Source: a virus. Taken from it: a stretch of 25,455 bases of DNA. The notes below the pieces were generated by a model that was given only the letters and a program-made list of their open reading frames with translations, was not told the origin of the DNA and searched no databases. Both the position numbers and the translations under genes were made by a program. Positions 993 to 7,720 of the stretch are shown here, in pieces. Position 1 is the first letter of the stretch, and each line of letters begins with the position of its first letter. The stretch covers positions 1 to 25,455 of the IMG/VR virus record IMGVR_UViG_3300025652_000488. The stretch is one strand, 5' to 3'.

Positions 993-1580
993 TCACAGGT
1001 CAATCACATCTTCAACCATAGGTCCAACCCGCGTGATCCTCGCGTCCGGGAAAGAGTTAGCCACCGCTTGCAGGCTGTCAGAGCGCGAACTGAGCAGCGC
1101 ACACACGTCTGACACATGGTAGACAACCCATGACGGATGCTTACGCCTGACGGCCCCCAGATCGCCTGTGGCAAGCAAGCAGTAGACTGTGCCACCCCAC
1201 TCAACCAAATGCCCGTCCACGGCTGGCGGAAGGTGACCCGCAGCGCGCGCGGTGGCATCCATGACGGCGACGGCCTTCACCAGCGACGCCGCTATGCCAG
1301 CGGCTTCCTGATGCCTCTCCTCAACCATTGCCACGTCCAGCTCAACCTTCAGCTCCGCAAACCTCACTGCGAACGCGGGCGGCACACACGACGGCAGAGT
1401 GTCACCCCAGACGGTTACGCTGTCGGCGCTGGCTTTGACCCACGGCCTGACCGCAGCCAGCGTCAGGTGATGGTACGGCTTCCCGTACGTTGAGTTGCTG
1501 CCGACGTCGAACTTGCCCCGTCCGTCCATCGCCTTCTTCTTGGCAGCCTCCGCCGCCTTGCTCACTGGTCGCTTAGCCAT
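993..1580 (-). CDS. Hypothetical protein, 195 aa
   Basis: The start MAKRPVSKAAEAAKKK is chosen because it lies inside the last codons of the upstream gene (8-base overlap), whereas the longer in-frame extension is an Arg/Cys-rich shadow of that gene. The N-terminus is basic (residues 1-25), consistent with nucleic-acid contact. The middle is a long helical segment (residues about 70-125, FAELKVELDVAMVEERHQEAAG then SLVKAVAVMDATARAAGH). The C-terminal half looks like a compact alpha/beta domain (HLVEWGGTVYCLL, SWVVYHVSDVCALLSS, ARITRVGPMVEDVIDL). I cannot name a family. Its place in the leftward early block suggests an early or host-takeover role, by inference only. Confidence 0.65.
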   Translation of the reverse strand: MAKRPVSKAAEAAKKKAMDGRGKFDVGSNSTYGKPYHHLTLAAVRPWVKASADSVTVWGDTLPSCVPPAFAVRFAELKVELDVAMVEERHQEAAGIAASLVKAVAVMDATARAAGHLPPAVDGHLVEWGGTVYCLLATGDLGAVRRKHPSWVVYHVSDVCALLSSRSDSLQAVANSFPDARITRVGPMVEDVIDL

Positions 1581-1818: not shown

Positions 1819-1979
1819 CGTACTCTCATTCCTTCTTTAAAGTTAACTCATGCCGAAGCCGTTCGTCTGGGGCTTGCGTCTGTGACTTTCGCTTCAGCGA
1901 AAAAGGCACTGACGCCTGCCCCGTGTCGGACAAAACAAGAGAGTGTACGCTTTTAGCGGACTCTGTTTAGACAGGGGTG

Positions 1980-2008
1980 TTGACAACTGCGTCGCTGGTG
2001 GTTAAAAT
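1980..2008 (+). promoter_or_regulatory. Near-consensus sigma-70 promoter, rightward
   Basis: TTGACA at 1980-1985 (perfect -35), a 17-base spacer, then TAAAAT at 2003-2008 (5 of 6 to the -10 consensus). The first motif copy (GCGTCGCTGG, 1989-1998) lies between the -35 and -10, and a reverse copy starts at about +16, so a protein bound there would block the promoter. It faces rightwards, against every gene between 1 and 7720. An inverted repeat AAATCTC-GTTA-GAGATTT (2005-2022) spans the expected start point near 2015. Confidence 0.6.
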
Positions 2009-2014
2009 CTCGTT

Positions 2015-2079
2015 AGAGATTTCAGGAAATCCAGTGACGCACTTTTATGATAACACCCCAGTTTGCGGGTGTTTTTTTA
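2015..2079 (+). ncRNA. Candidate small RNA between a promoter and a terminator
   Basis: A transcript from the promoter at 1980-2008 would start near 2015 and end at the terminator at 2052-2079, giving an RNA of about 65 bases. It contains one reverse copy of the array motif (2030-2041), which could pair with forward copies in other transcripts, including RNA of the opposite strand. There is no credible open reading frame in it. The start point is inferred from promoter spacing; no expression evidence is available. Confidence 0.4.
2052..2079 (+). terminator. Rho-independent terminator, rightward
   Basis: AACACCC (2052-2058) pairs with GGGTGTT (2068-2074 region) around a short loop and runs into an uninterrupted T tract (about 2072-2078). 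On the plus strand this is a classic intrinsic terminator. On the minus strand there is no T tract after the stem, so it should stop rightward but not leftward transcription. Confidence 0.7.
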
Positions 2080-2157
2080 TGCCTAATCTGCGTCACTGGA
2101 TTTTAGCTGTTTTCCCACTGACGCAAACACCCATCAAACCCCTTGTTTCATTGACGT

Positions 2158-2418
2158 TTATTCTGCGTCACTGGATTTGGCCTGTTTTTCCAGTGACGCA
2201 ACTTGCTTTTTGAAATCCTTCTCACCCAGTAACTCTATCGCCAGCCCCGTCATCATGAGCCTGACCGTGTACGCTGCGATTGGGTTGACTGGACACTGGC
2301 CACTTTCCCACCTGCGGATCGTGCGCCCGCCGTTGATGCCCATGTCAAACTCATCGGCAAGCGCCTGCTGCGTGTAGCCAAGCGCCATGCGCGCCTGCTT
2401 GAACTCTTGCGGTGTCAT
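2158..2418 (-). CDS. Xre-family helix-turn-helix regulator, 86 aa
   Basis: A cro/C1-type DNA-binding domain fills residues 1-62: MTPQEFKQARMALGYTQQAL, then ADEFDMG, GGRTIRRWESG and NPIAAYTVRL. The pattern 'R..LG.TQQ.LA..F.....TIRRWE.G..P' is characteristic of Xre-like regulators. The start at 2418 forms an ATGA junction with the upstream methyltransferase-like gene and has GGGGAG at good spacing; a start five codons earlier is possible. The last codons, from residue 73 (VASLEKQA..SSDAE), are written by a 12-base-arm palindrome of the neighbouring motif array, so the gene's 3' end is also a potential binding site. It may regulate that array or its own operon, but this is inference. Confidence 0.85.
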   Translation of the reverse strand: MTPQEFKQARMALGYTQQALADEFDMGINGGRTIRRWESGQCPVNPIAAYTVRLMMTGLAIELLGEKDFKKQVASLEKQAKSSDAE

Positions 2419-3014
2419 TGGTTGTCTCCCCATTGTGCGGCCATCGCGTCTGCAATGCCTTGGTATGTCGTGCTGCGTATTTTCCAGCGGTCCGGCGACG
2501 GCGGAAGGTAGTGCAGCCGCTCGCGGACGTTTTTAGGCAGCGTCATCATCTCGTCGTAGACGTCGTTGGTAGGTATCAGGTTTGGTAGGCCATGCAGAAA
2601 TAGCCCCGTCTTCTTCTGCTCCATATGGCCGAACTGATATGGCTGCACGAACTGCGGCGCGTGCATTTTGCCAAGCCTGCGCAAAACGCCGACAGGGTTT
2701 TCCATGCAGACGCGCGGCGACGCTAACTTCATTGCATCCCACAAGGCAACGGTCCAATCAACCGATGCAAGCCGCTCCGCATATTTTGGCTGCCCCTCGC
2801 CGTAGGTGCTATTGCCGGCGACGGTCAGAGCCGTGCAGGGCGGATGCGCAATAATTAAATCCCACTTCTGGCTCAGCATGTCATATACGTCGCCCTGATG
2901 ATGTGGGCCTTCTGCATCCGTTGGTAGCAGGTCGCACGACGTGGCGTCATGGCCGCGTGCGTTAAAAGCGTCACGCACTGTGCCGGAGTATTCGCAGGCT
3001 ACTAAAACTTTCAT
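2415..3014 (-). CDS. Cytosine-C5 DNA methyltransferase-like protein, 199 aa
   Basis: A compact single-domain protein of the Dcm-like fold common in phages. Visible motifs are a motif-I-like VLVACEYSGTVRDAF (residues 3-17), D28 in the second strand, the catalytic-type PPC at 58-60 in IIAHPPCTAL (motif IV) and MENP at 104-107 (motif VI). The C-terminal part ends LPPSPDRWKIRSTTYQGIAD, which recurs in this phage family. At 199 residues it is far shorter than a typical bacterial C5 methyltransferase and lacks a large target-recognition domain, so its target and even its activity are uncertain. ATG at 3014 with AGGAGG upstream is preferred over a TTG one codon earlier. No restriction partner is visible; possible roles are protection from host restriction or regulation. 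Confidence 0.7.
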   Translation of the reverse strand: MKVLVACEYSGTVRDAFNARGHDATSCDLLPTDAEGPHHQGDVYDMLSQKWDLIIAHPPCTALTVAGNSTYGEGQPKYAERLASVDWTVALWDAMKLASPRVCMENPVGVLRRLGKMHAPQFVQPYQFGHMEQKKTGLFLHGLPNLIPTNDVYDEMMTLPKNVRERLHYLPPSPDRWKIRSTTYQGIADAMAAQWGDNQ

Positions 3015-3354: not shown

Positions 3355-5673
3355 CTAGGTGTCTTGCTCTCCAACGCGGCCAGTCGCCTGCACACCCATG
3401 CGCTCCCTACGCTGGCTCTCTGACCGATACGCGACCTCCTCCAGCAAATCTTTCTCGAACCATTCTGCGATGATCAGCTTGGCCTGCCTCGCCGACTTCT
3501 TGTGGTCTGGGTTTGCAAATGTGTAGCCAGTGATGACTGATCCGACGTAGCGCGCCTTATCCTGCGGCCTGCTTGAGTATCTCTCGCCCTCGACGCCCTT
3601 GTCGATCTCAGTCAGCATCGCGTTGACCACGCGCGTCGTCATGCCGTCCCACAAGTCGGGCAGAGTATAGGCAACGCATACGCCGACGTATTCGCCGTTG
3701 TCCAGCTTGACCGACTTCATGCGGCGGTAGACTGCATGCTCCGCTGGCCGCGTGAGGTTGTTTTTTCCGTCGTCCACACGGAACAGGCCAATGGCGTCGC
3801 TCTCGCTGACGCCCAGCTCAATGGCGTCCTCACGGCTAACCTTGTTGATGACGCGTGCAGCTCTGGCCGCGCCGATCAGTGCGCCAGCCCCTCGGACGCT
3901 GTCGATGGTGGCATCCTCACCGCCGCCAGTCTTGCGAATGTGGTGGATCACGCCGTTGCCGCACGACGTCTCGCGAGAAATCTTGCGGATCATCGCGACC
4001 ACTGCTTGGATGCTTGGGTTTGAGTTTTCGTTGACTTGGTGCATCGACACAAACGGATCAGTGATCACCAGCCCGATGTTGTTCTCCCTGATCTTGTCGC
4101 GGATGGCGTTGGCCAGCGCAGTGTTCTCGATCAAGCCGTCGCGCGTCTCCATCGCCAGCGTGATGCTGATCGTGTCCTCGGCGTCGAGGAACAGCCGGCC
4201 CTTCAACTCTTCGTGTGTCACGTTGTATTCGCGCATGATGCCAGCAAGCCGCAGGTTGATCTCGTCCATGTCGTCTTCGAGGCACGCGAACCAGACTGGC
4301 ACGCTCTCGTGGACGACTTCACCCAGCAGCGGGCGCCCGGTGGCGATGGCTACTGCCTCAACCATTGTCAGCGACGTCTTGCCGATGCCGCCCGCGCTGG
4401 CCGTCACGCTGACAAAATTGCGGCAGTAGTGATTGCCGTAAATCCAGCGGCGTTTTGGCAGGTCGGCCTCGTTGAAATTTGCGACTGGCGTCGGCCACAT
4501 CTGCAACGTGTCGTCCACGTCCACTGTGGCAGGCTCTAGGCGCACTGGCATGTCATCCTCTGGCACGTAGTCAAAGTCGTCAAAGCCGTCGTCCTGTGTA
4601 ACCTCTGGCTGCGCGTGACGCACCTCCTCGAACGGGCTGGGCCGCAGCTCTTTGGCATACTCGCGCACGGCCGACTTCATGTCGCCGTTATGCTCAAAAT
4701 GGCAAAATAAGTCAAAGGCGTCGCCCCAGCAGTAATCGCCTTTCACCGCGCCGATGACTGCGCCGACATCTGAGCCAGATAGGCTGACCCAATACTCGCC
4801 AAAGTTCTTGGTCGCGAATGACCCTGACGACTGATAGCGGCTTGCATACGACTGCGAGTTGCCGTCGCGTGTGTAGCCACACCGCAGCAGCATATCTTCG
4901 ACTGTGTGGCGTGCGTTAAACTCCGCCACCGGGTCGAGATCGTCGCCCGACGCCTCCCGGCGCTTGATGCGCTCGGCCTGACGGACGGCACGCTCATGCT
5001 CTGCCTGCCGCTCGGCGATGGCCGCACGCTGACGGCGGAATTGCACCTCGCCCCAGATGCTGCTGTTCTTCACGTCAAGATAGCCCTCTCCGCGATGGCG
5101 ATCCTGATGGTAGAACAGCGGCTGCCCATGCGCATCGCGCTTTGCTGGCGGCACGTTCGGGAGGAAGATTGGCTGCCCAACCCGCGCGAGGGCCGCATCA
5201 CAGGTCACCCCTTGCTCACCCATCAGGCTGAACAGCGCCAACTGCGTGTCGCCATAGTCAGCGCCGCTGATCGGCTCAAGCAGTGGGATCAGCACTCGCC
5301 ACTTGCGGTTGTCTTCGCTGGCACCTGACGACGAATAGATCAACGCAGACGCATCGCCCGTTGCCCGTTTAACGGCATCCTTCAGATCGACCAGCGACGG
5401 CGAACCTTCGTCAACGTCAATCGCAAGGTAGTGAAATTCGCCACGCTCACGCTGCGATGCGTGCTTGCGGCCGTCGTGTTCGCGGTAAGTCGACGGAATG
5501 ATAAAGCTGGCGTCGGCCTTTTCCTTGGCCTGCGGCTCGGCAACCATTGCGGCGATGGCTGCGAGGCTGATGCTATCATATTGCCGATCTTCGTTGCCGA
5601 TCTTTGTGTCGTGTGCGCCGTGTGCTAAAAGCACGTCAGACTTGCCCACGGCTGAAATTTTAGTTACACTCAT
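3355..5673 (-). CDS. PrimPol-helicase (AEP-like primase fused to RecA/AAA_25-type ATPase), 772 aa
   Basis: Probable replication primase-helicase. The N-terminal domain (about 60-190) contains YLAIDVDEG (D86 and D88, the metal-binding DxD type of archaeo-eukaryotic primases) and RKWRVLIPLLEP. A linker domain (about 250-345) carries HTVEDMLLRCGYTRDG and GDAFDLFCHFEHNGD, seen in other phage PrimPol-helicases. The C-terminal RecA-like ATPase has Walker A ASAGGIGKTS (425-434), ACLEDD (463-468), Walker B LVITDP (535-540) and HHIRK (577-581), followed by the RGAGALIGAARAARV motif typical of RepA-like hexameric helicases. The start MSVTK at 5673 has GGAGA upstream; a 53-residue extension reads through a hairpin and is rejected. 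It would unwind the fork and synthesise primers. No polymerase gene lies nearby. Confidence 0.85.
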   Translation of the reverse strand: MSVTKISAVGKSDVLLAHGAHDTKIGNEDRQYDSISLAAIAAMVAEPQAKEKADASFIIPSTYREHDGRKHASQRERGEFHYLAIDVDEGSPSLVDLKDAVKRATGDASALIYSSSGASEDNRKWRVLIPLLEPISGADYGDTQLALFSLMGEQGVTCDAALARVGQPIFLPNVPPAKRDAHGQPLFYHQDRHRGEGYLDVKNSSIWGEVQFRRQRAAIAERQAEHERAVRQAERIKRREASGDDLDPVAEFNARHTVEDMLLRCGYTRDGNSQSYASRYQSSGSFATKNFGEYWVSLSGSDVGAVIGAVKGDYCWGDAFDLFCHFEHNGDMKSAVREYAKELRPSPFEEVRHAQPEVTQDDGFDDFDYVPEDDMPVRLEPATVDVDDTLQMWPTPVANFNEADLPKRRWIYGNHYCRNFVSVTASAGGIGKTSLTMVEAVAIATGRPLLGEVVHESVPVWFACLEDDMDEINLRLAGIMREYNVTHEELKGRLFLDAEDTISITLAMETRDGLIENTALANAIRDKIRENNIGLVITDPFVSMHQVNENSNPSIQAVVAMIRKISRETSCGNGVIHHIRKTGGGEDATIDSVRGAGALIGAARAARVINKVSREDAIELGVSESDAIGLFRVDDGKNNLTRPAEHAVYRRMKSVKLDNGEYVGVCVAYTLPDLWDGMTTRVVNAMLTEIDKGVEGERYSSRPQDKARYVGSVITGYTFANPDHKKSARQAKLIIAEWFEKDLLEEVAYRSESQRRERMGVQATGRVGEQDT

Positions 5674-7203: not shown

Positions 7204-7592
7204 GCCATTGCCTCCCTTGCTAAATAGCAGAATGCGTCGAAATCCATCTCGACGACAAATTCGGTTTCATGGCCGATCACGCAATCCATCGGCACAACGC
7301 AGCGGATCGGCTTGCGGTCATAACGATAGATCAACGCAGGCGACTTGCCCTCACGCCTTGCGGCAACGCACGTTTGCTCCCACCAAGCCTTCTGGCCACC
7401 GATGGGGCCGTCAGCGTAACGCTTCAACTCCAACGTGAATGGAAAGGCAGGATCGGACGGGATCAGGTCGCCGTGACCACCCTCGCGGTATTGCTCCAAG
7501 TCACGCTTGAAAGAAATGCCAAGCTCGTCGTGCAGCATCTTAGCGATGTCACGCTCAAACGCGGCGCCCTTGTTGCGGCCATTGGTTGCCAT
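7200..7592 (-). CDS. Hjc-like PD-(D/E)XK nuclease, possible Holliday-junction resolvase, 130 aa
   Basis: The layout matches small archaeal-type resolvases: NKGAAFERDIAKML (Glu13 in the first helix), then GHGDLIP with Asp42, and FTLELKRY with the E55-x-K57 core. It is followed by WWEQTCVAARREGKSPALIYRYDRK, an arrangement in which a helix and a strand after the core complete the fold. It probably cuts branched DNA formed during replication and recombination. Length is normal for the family. The gene starts in a TGATG junction with the RHH gene and ends in an ATGA junction with the RecE-like gene, so the three are translationally coupled. Confidence 0.7.
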   Translation of the reverse strand: MATNGRNKGAAFERDIAKMLHDELGISFKRDLEQYREGGHGDLIPSDPAFPFTLELKRYADGPIGGQKAWWEQTCVAARREGKSPALIYRYDRKPIRCVVPMDCVIGHETEFVVEMDFDAFCYLAREAMA

Positions 7593-7720
7593 CAGGTATC
7601 ACGCGCTTGGTTGAGTGCCGCCATGCGGACGAATGCCGTAAACGTAATGCCGAGCTTGTCGGCCGCCGCCTGTATGATTGCGCCGTGCTCGTCGCTGAAT
7701 TGTATCAGTTTGGGTTTCAT
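7592..7720 (-). CDS. Ribbon-helix-helix-like small protein, 42 aa
   Basis: Only 42 residues: MKPKLIQFSDEHGAII then QAAADKLGITFTAFVRMAAL. One short strand (KLIQFS) followed by two helices is the pattern of an Arc/MetJ-type ribbon-helix-helix DNA-binding monomer, which works as a dimer. AGGAGA lies at good spacing before the ATG; the 25-residue in-frame extension has no ribosome-binding site and is rejected. It is the first gene of the leftward operon and sits beside the divergent promoter region, a typical place for a small autoregulator. Regulation is inferred from fold and position. Confidence 0.7.
   Translation of the reverse strand: MKPKLIQFSDEHGAIIQAAADKLGITFTAFVRMAALNQARDT

Follow-up and report, generated by a model that had tools for sequence, protein, structure and literature searches.

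Genomic context of the promoter unit

The window, by which we mean the whole stretch of DNA analyzed here, is the 25,455-base IMG/VR virus record IMGVR_UViG_3300025652_000488. All genes near the promoter unit described below lie on the minus strand, as the initial annotation had reported for the surrounding several kilobases, and the first likely plus-strand genes begin near 8 kb. Read in the sense of the operon, the series consists of genes for a RusA-like protein, an exonuclease VIII-like protein, a gp2.5-like SSB, a primase-helicase (AAA_25), a DNA methyltransferase, and a small HTH protein, after which come an array of short repeats and then small genes that include g996 (Table 1). The record appears to come from a marine phage.

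Table 1. Positions of genes and sequence features around the promoter unit in the window
Feature	Position	Strand	Remarks
g996, ~195-aa protein	993..1580	-	No Pfam/PHROG family; far side of array in both phage classes
Hairpin AGAGT..ACTCT	1940..1964		Upstream of promoter; T tracts weak in the window
Sigma70-type promoter TTGACA-17-TAAAAT	1980..2008	+	-35 at 1980-1985, -10 at 2003-2008; 11/12 consensus positions
Iteron copy 1, TGCGTCGCTGGT	1988..1999	+	In promoter spacer, between -35 and -10
Perfect dyad AAATCTC-GTTA-GAGATTT	2005..2022		Covers -10 and start site
Predicted RNA, 64 nt	2015..2078	+	Start at A2015 inferred; end taken as end of T run
Iteron copy 2	2030..2041	-	In predicted RNA body
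Intrinsic terminator	2052..2078	+	7-bp stem AACACCC/GGGTGTT (2052-2058/2067-2073), loop of 8, T run of 7 (2072-2078)
Iteron copy 3	2089..2100	+	Motif scan
Iteron copy 4	2114..2125	-	Motif scan
Small XRE-like HTH protein gene	2158..2433	-	Directly upstream of array (operon sense); HTH_3 E 6e-4 (below cut-off); phrog_14076
Iteron copy 5	2164..2175	+	Overlaps 3' end of HTH gene
Iteron copy 6	2189..2200	-	Overlaps 3' end of HTH gene
Primase-helicase (AAA_25) gene	3355..5673	-	Start ATG inferred from L097

The nearest named relatives by primase are the roseophages CRP-811 to CRP-831 (about 44-45% over 58% of the query), and one record, IMGVR 3300022072_000133, is nearly the same as the window, differing at 1 base in 1,001 (positions 1500-2500). 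A megablast of the window against phages gave no match, and the primase profile, run against bacterial and archaeal genomes, recovered no relative and thus no host or prophage context. The GC skew of the window has no switch and is uninformative about an origin.

The hairpin upstream of the promoter has conserved counterparts in the related loci L149 and L176, where T runs on both sides make it terminator-like in both directions, and the replication operon on the minus strand probably ends at it. Homologues of g996 were present in 19 of the 26 loci tested and recur beyond the array in phages whose iterons are quite different. As a candidate initiator, g996 was dropped, its predicted fold (mean pLDDT 74) having no match in the PDB at E ≤0.001. 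Ahead of the g996-like gene, L149 (3440-3640) and L176 (6800-6990) carry a conserved, structured-looking leader with GGACGCAAAGC, which resembles a riboswitch motif by eye and has no match in Rfam. The HTH protein of the window (2158-2433), compared with that of L097 (6356-6769), has kept its N-terminal half and differs wholly in its C-terminal part; L097 also has an inserted gene at this locus, a homologue of the 146-aa gene adjoining the array in L103.

A promoter and terminator within an iteron array

The initial annotation had described TTGACA, 17 bases, and TAAAAT, followed by a stem and T tract, and this arrangement is indeed present and exceptional for the window. The promoter is the only one in 25 kb with at least 11 of 12 consensus positions, and among the 13 promoters with at least 9 of 12, it alone has a terminator within 110 nt. 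Under these criteria, which are our own (spacer of 16-18 nt, terminator within 110 nt), no unit of promoter (at least 10/12) and terminator arose in 100 dinucleotide shuffles of the whole window, and promoters of at least 11/12 averaged 0.02 per shuffle. The scan for terminator sites is weak by itself, with 7 found in 6 kb versus 5.4 expected.

The short RNA that had been proposed here is borne out as a prediction, although its length is 64 and not 65 nt. It encloses no plausible open reading frame, again in line with the initial annotation; a 78-aa GTG frame (1977-2213) crosses the array and the stem. The dyad was also considered as a hairpin at the 5' end of the RNA and rejected: transcription is predicted to begin at the right edge of its loop, so that the transcript would not include the left arm.

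The repeats are copies of the motif TGCGTCACTGGA, six of which lie between 1988 and 2200 as three inverted pairs; elsewhere in the window there are two more matches, each with two mismatches. The array overlaps the promoter, and a motif copy falls in the body of the RNA, both as first described, and an iteron overlaps the promoter in every allele that has the unit. Between the window and L097 (locus 7211-7635; 92.5% identical), all six iterons share one T-to-C change, and this six-copy switch is, by comparison of the two arrays, concerted evolution of the iteron array.

Conservation of the unit among related phages

Nine alleles possess TTGACA, a spacer iteron, a dyad, and a second iteron: those of the window, L097, L183, L184, and L186 and the L149, L176, L185, and L288 types. 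To avoid selecting on the promoter, we searched with an anchor independent of it, namely, the right edge of the dyad and iteron 2 only, and obtained 53 stretches (one contig gave two), every one of which has TTGACA 40-42 nt upstream, noting that these stretches represent five alleles over 64 nt and are far from independent. A T run of at least six follows in only 5 of the 53, because alleles that have no terminator (L149, L176, and L288) dominate the set. One 40.9-kb contig, IMGVR_UViG_3300046167_000283, has an origin-like unit twice (L301 and L302), as might result from overlapping assembly ends or from two origins.

Counted by allele, TTGACA is kept in nine of nine, and a T-run terminator is found in six: the window, L097, L183, L185, and L186 have a T run of seven by the strict rule, and L184 has an imperfect stem. 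The stems themselves differ, being AACACCC/GGGTGTT in the window and L097, AACCTCCG/CGGGGGTT in L183, AGCCTCC/GGGGGCT in L185, and AGCTCCC/GGGGGCT in L186. The dyad is perfect, at 7-8 bp, in eight of the nine alleles and has 4 bp in L184; its arms vary together between alleles and comprise at least three different sequences. (A MAFFT alignment of eight alleles misplaced the dyads, and these pair counts come from allele-by-allele reading.) The L097 allele, whose primase is 89% identical to that of the window and whose array region matches over 427 columns at the identity given above, has the same terminator and the same -35, a spacer of 15 with TATAAT, and replacements of both dyad arms. The best -10 likewise stands at a 15-nt spacer in L183 and L186, and L184 combines TTGACA, its short dyad, and a terminator without a -10; some alleles may thus have a weak or dead promoter.

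In the primase tree, all 12 sampled unit-bearing rows form one clade (support 87/92), whose sisters L251 and L252 are without the unit, and on this tree, from which L288 is absent, losing the terminator once is simpler than gaining it several times. Promoter and terminator have been kept among phages whose primases have diverged to 56-63% identity, the opposite of the pattern (promoter and stem unconserved beside conserved flanking genes) that the initial annotation had named as counting against it. At the level of sequence, the promoter unit is real and conserved, and it is terminated in most alleles; evolutionary constraint on promoter, dyad, iterons, and terminator is well supported by this comparison. 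Because three alleles have no terminator, not every member of the clade would make a discrete RNA, and transcription, rather than a discrete RNA, may be the conserved feature.

The positions of the repeats also admit the reading that the array is not an origin and instead is an operator region, with the motif copies and the dyad as binding sites for a phage regulator that, in a transcription switch, represses or activates the promoter on the plus strand. A dyad over the -10 and start and a motif in the spacer occupy classical operator positions, and a gene of the phage-repressor HTH type adjoins the array in the window, L097, L023, L183, and L184. We nonetheless regard this reading as unlikely: there is no HTH match at that place in L149, L176, L185, and L186, all of which have the unit; the HTH core GGRTIRRWE is, by eye, nearly the same in the window, L097, and L023, yet the array of L023 is entirely different; and arrays are kept in phages that have no such promoter.

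Arrays and palindromes behind the primase gene

The wider family was sampled by two scans with primase profiles, taking the best 80 loci of each, together with three named phages; counts are of contigs, many of which are nearly identical. Among 73 loci from the best 80 of the first scan, 61 have a 9-mer occurring at least three times within 300 nt behind the primase gene, versus 3 of 73 in shuffled sequence, and several of the other 12 are on contigs that end early. The iteron motif varies by phage group, examples being TGCGYCACTGG, ACTACAAA, TTTCATACA, and TTTCTATAG. In the roseophages CRP-831 (L104, 3859-4035), CRP-811 (L105, 4362-4549), and CRP-823 (L106, 3165-3352), an iteron array around CCCTAAAGGG lies directly behind the primase-helicase gene and is a candidate origin.

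The sequence TGTAACCCATTGAAAAC, once considered as a family origin box, was dropped as a marker, since it occurs in 40 viral stretches in many unrelated contexts. Its sites include L103 627-643, L105 4499-4515, and L107-L146, and several adjoin a tRNA-like 3' end. Searches of open-access papers turned up no title or abstract in which the promoter unit, or the array with its palindrome, is described for these phages, a result that does not establish absence in print, and the accessible part of PMC12629253, on the CRP-811 group, has no match for iteron, repeat, or intergenic.

In class B phages, CRP phages, and L257-L269, an inverted iteron pair surrounds CCTATAGG, CCTATAAGG, CCTAAAGG, or CCTTTAGG. 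Across 100 partly redundant loci (106 were taken, and 6 with less than 400 nt behind the primase were left out), the TTGACA unit is found in 40, such a palindrome in 45, both in none, and neither in 15; the palindrome turned up in 3 of 100 triplet-shuffled controls. Among the 15 loci with neither, L184 has the unit but fails the regular expression, and L165, L169, L204, L214, and L225 have less than 600 nt behind the primase. The promoter-dyad thus appears to occupy the site of the CCTATAGG-type palindrome, a homology of position only.

These comparisons bear on the small RNA that the initial annotation had proposed as free-standing. Since the unit is embedded in an array that promoter-less phages keep at the same place, and stands where they have the CCTATAGG-type palindrome, the reading as a free-standing small-RNA gene is not supported. 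A further suggestion, that the motif copy in the RNA pairs with other copies, is unlikely to capture the role of the motif. Relatives without the TTGACA unit (L251, L257-L269, and class B) still have motif arrays, an argument for a motif that acts at the level of DNA. A regulatory small RNA, whether it acts on mRNA in trans or in cis or as an oop-like antisense to the 3' untranslated region of the replication operon, would account for the conserved promoter and terminator, for predicted RNAs of 62-64 nt in five alleles (84 nt in L184), and for a position complementary to the downstream region of the operon. We nevertheless judge it quite improbable, given that the unit sits in an origin-like array, that the conserved part of the RNA body is an iteron kept elsewhere without a promoter, that three alleles have no terminator, and that Rfam at gathering score has 0 matches in the window and in seven relatives.

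A promoter over a putative origin core

As in iteron origins, multiple short repeats adjoin the replication genes, and the unit is most likely part of a replication origin; its transcription, its function at an origin, and the mechanism we infer. We lean toward a promoter that is superimposed on the origin core and drives a short, terminated transcript against the replication operon, which would tune origin opening, as with lambda pO, oop, and tO. The origin core of the wider family would be an inverted iteron pair around a short CCTATAGG-type palindrome, and in the clade of the window a sigma70-type promoter would stand at the core instead, with iteron 1 as its spacer and the dyad over the -10 and start. 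Polymerases transcribing the minus-strand operon would cross the array toward the hairpin at 1940-1964, opposed by the plus-strand promoter, whose RNA of about 64 nt would end ahead of the remaining iterons and the last gene. RNA polymerase at the promoter would melt or occupy the origin core, the short convergent transcript would limit or time the entry of operon transcription into the origin, and an iteron-binding initiator would feed back on the promoter via the spacer iteron. Transcription is favored over the RNA molecule as the function, and fits better than a small RNA, because the terminator is missing in three alleles and because the lambda oop RNA itself seems, from portions of PMC3985674, to be of little weight for replication.

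Alternatively, the RNA could be a replication primer, made by RNA polymerase at the origin core and extended by DNA polymerase from its 3' end or from an R-loop. Melting at the promoter would indeed hit the origin core, and the predicted transcript ends within the array, but a primer seems to us quite improbable: the phage has its own primase-helicase, the terminator is not universal in the clade, and a primer role for lambda oop was judged unlikely, as DnaG suffices (PMC3985674, in part).

Beyond a promoter that tunes the opening of an origin, it is possible, if doubtful, that in one clade the host RNA polymerase took over origin opening altogether. The promoter would have replaced an ancestral palindrome at the core, its bubble would melt the stretch on which the helicase-primase loads, and the terminator would stop the polymerase within the array. 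If so, the concerted switches of iteron and dyad alleles would mark diversifying origin specificity between competing phages. Related phages having the same kind of replication proteins and either a palindrome or a promoter at the core would offer a natural experiment on the coupling of transcription to origin opening; an iteron pair around a palindrome behind the primase-helicase gene could serve as a signature by which to find candidate origins in many marine phages that remain uncultured, and the unit in the window provides a concrete promoter to test.

Comparison with known systems

The RNA-based prophage origins of mycobacteriophages have in common with the window a noncoding RNA, here predicted, at a phage origin region; they differ in belonging to phages without repA, in which the RNA serves prophage maintenance, and no adjoining iteron array is reported in the relevant portion of PMC7157519. 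The oriV of RSF1010, as outlined in sections of PMC4234260, resembles the present arrangement in its iterons (RepC) and short hairpins (ssi) and in its use of a primase and a hexameric helicase, whereas here, in six of the nine alleles, the hairpin belongs to a terminator with a T run.

In pRN1, a palindrome behind the primase-helicase gene is essential for replication, and its symmetry is conserved although its sequence is poorly so; an origin of this type has also been proposed for Bordetella phage BIP-1 (both from the part of PMC4234260 on such origins). Shared with these is a palindromic structure directly 3' of the primase-helicase gene and near a terminator, with symmetry conserved over sequence. 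The pRN1 origin differs in being one large stem-loop, of about 100 nt and without iterons, while here there are separate short inverted pairs, with iterons around short palindromes and a promoter in one clade.

For lambda, pO is a documented convergent promoter that lies beside the iterons and opposes pR, and its defects impair replication, apparently via excess pR transcription reaching the origin (passages of PMC3985674). The pO-oop-tO unit at ori-lambda and that of the window have in common a promoter that adjoins an iteron origin (here putative) and opposes origin-crossing transcription of the replication operon, a short terminated transcript (here predicted, with a terminator in six of nine alleles), and a regulatory site over the promoter (PMC3985674 and PMC5869508, as far as these describe the region). 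In lambda, however, gene O contains the origin, and cII is overlapped by oop, whereas the window unit stands behind the primase operon. Unlike oop, the predicted RNA of the window unit ends before the HTH gene (2158) and is antisense to untranslated sequence only, not to the 3' end of a coding gene upstream. The window unit is further distinguished by an iteron that forms the promoter spacer and by a promoter placed where relatives have a palindrome, and its likeness to lambda is proposed for the arrangement only.
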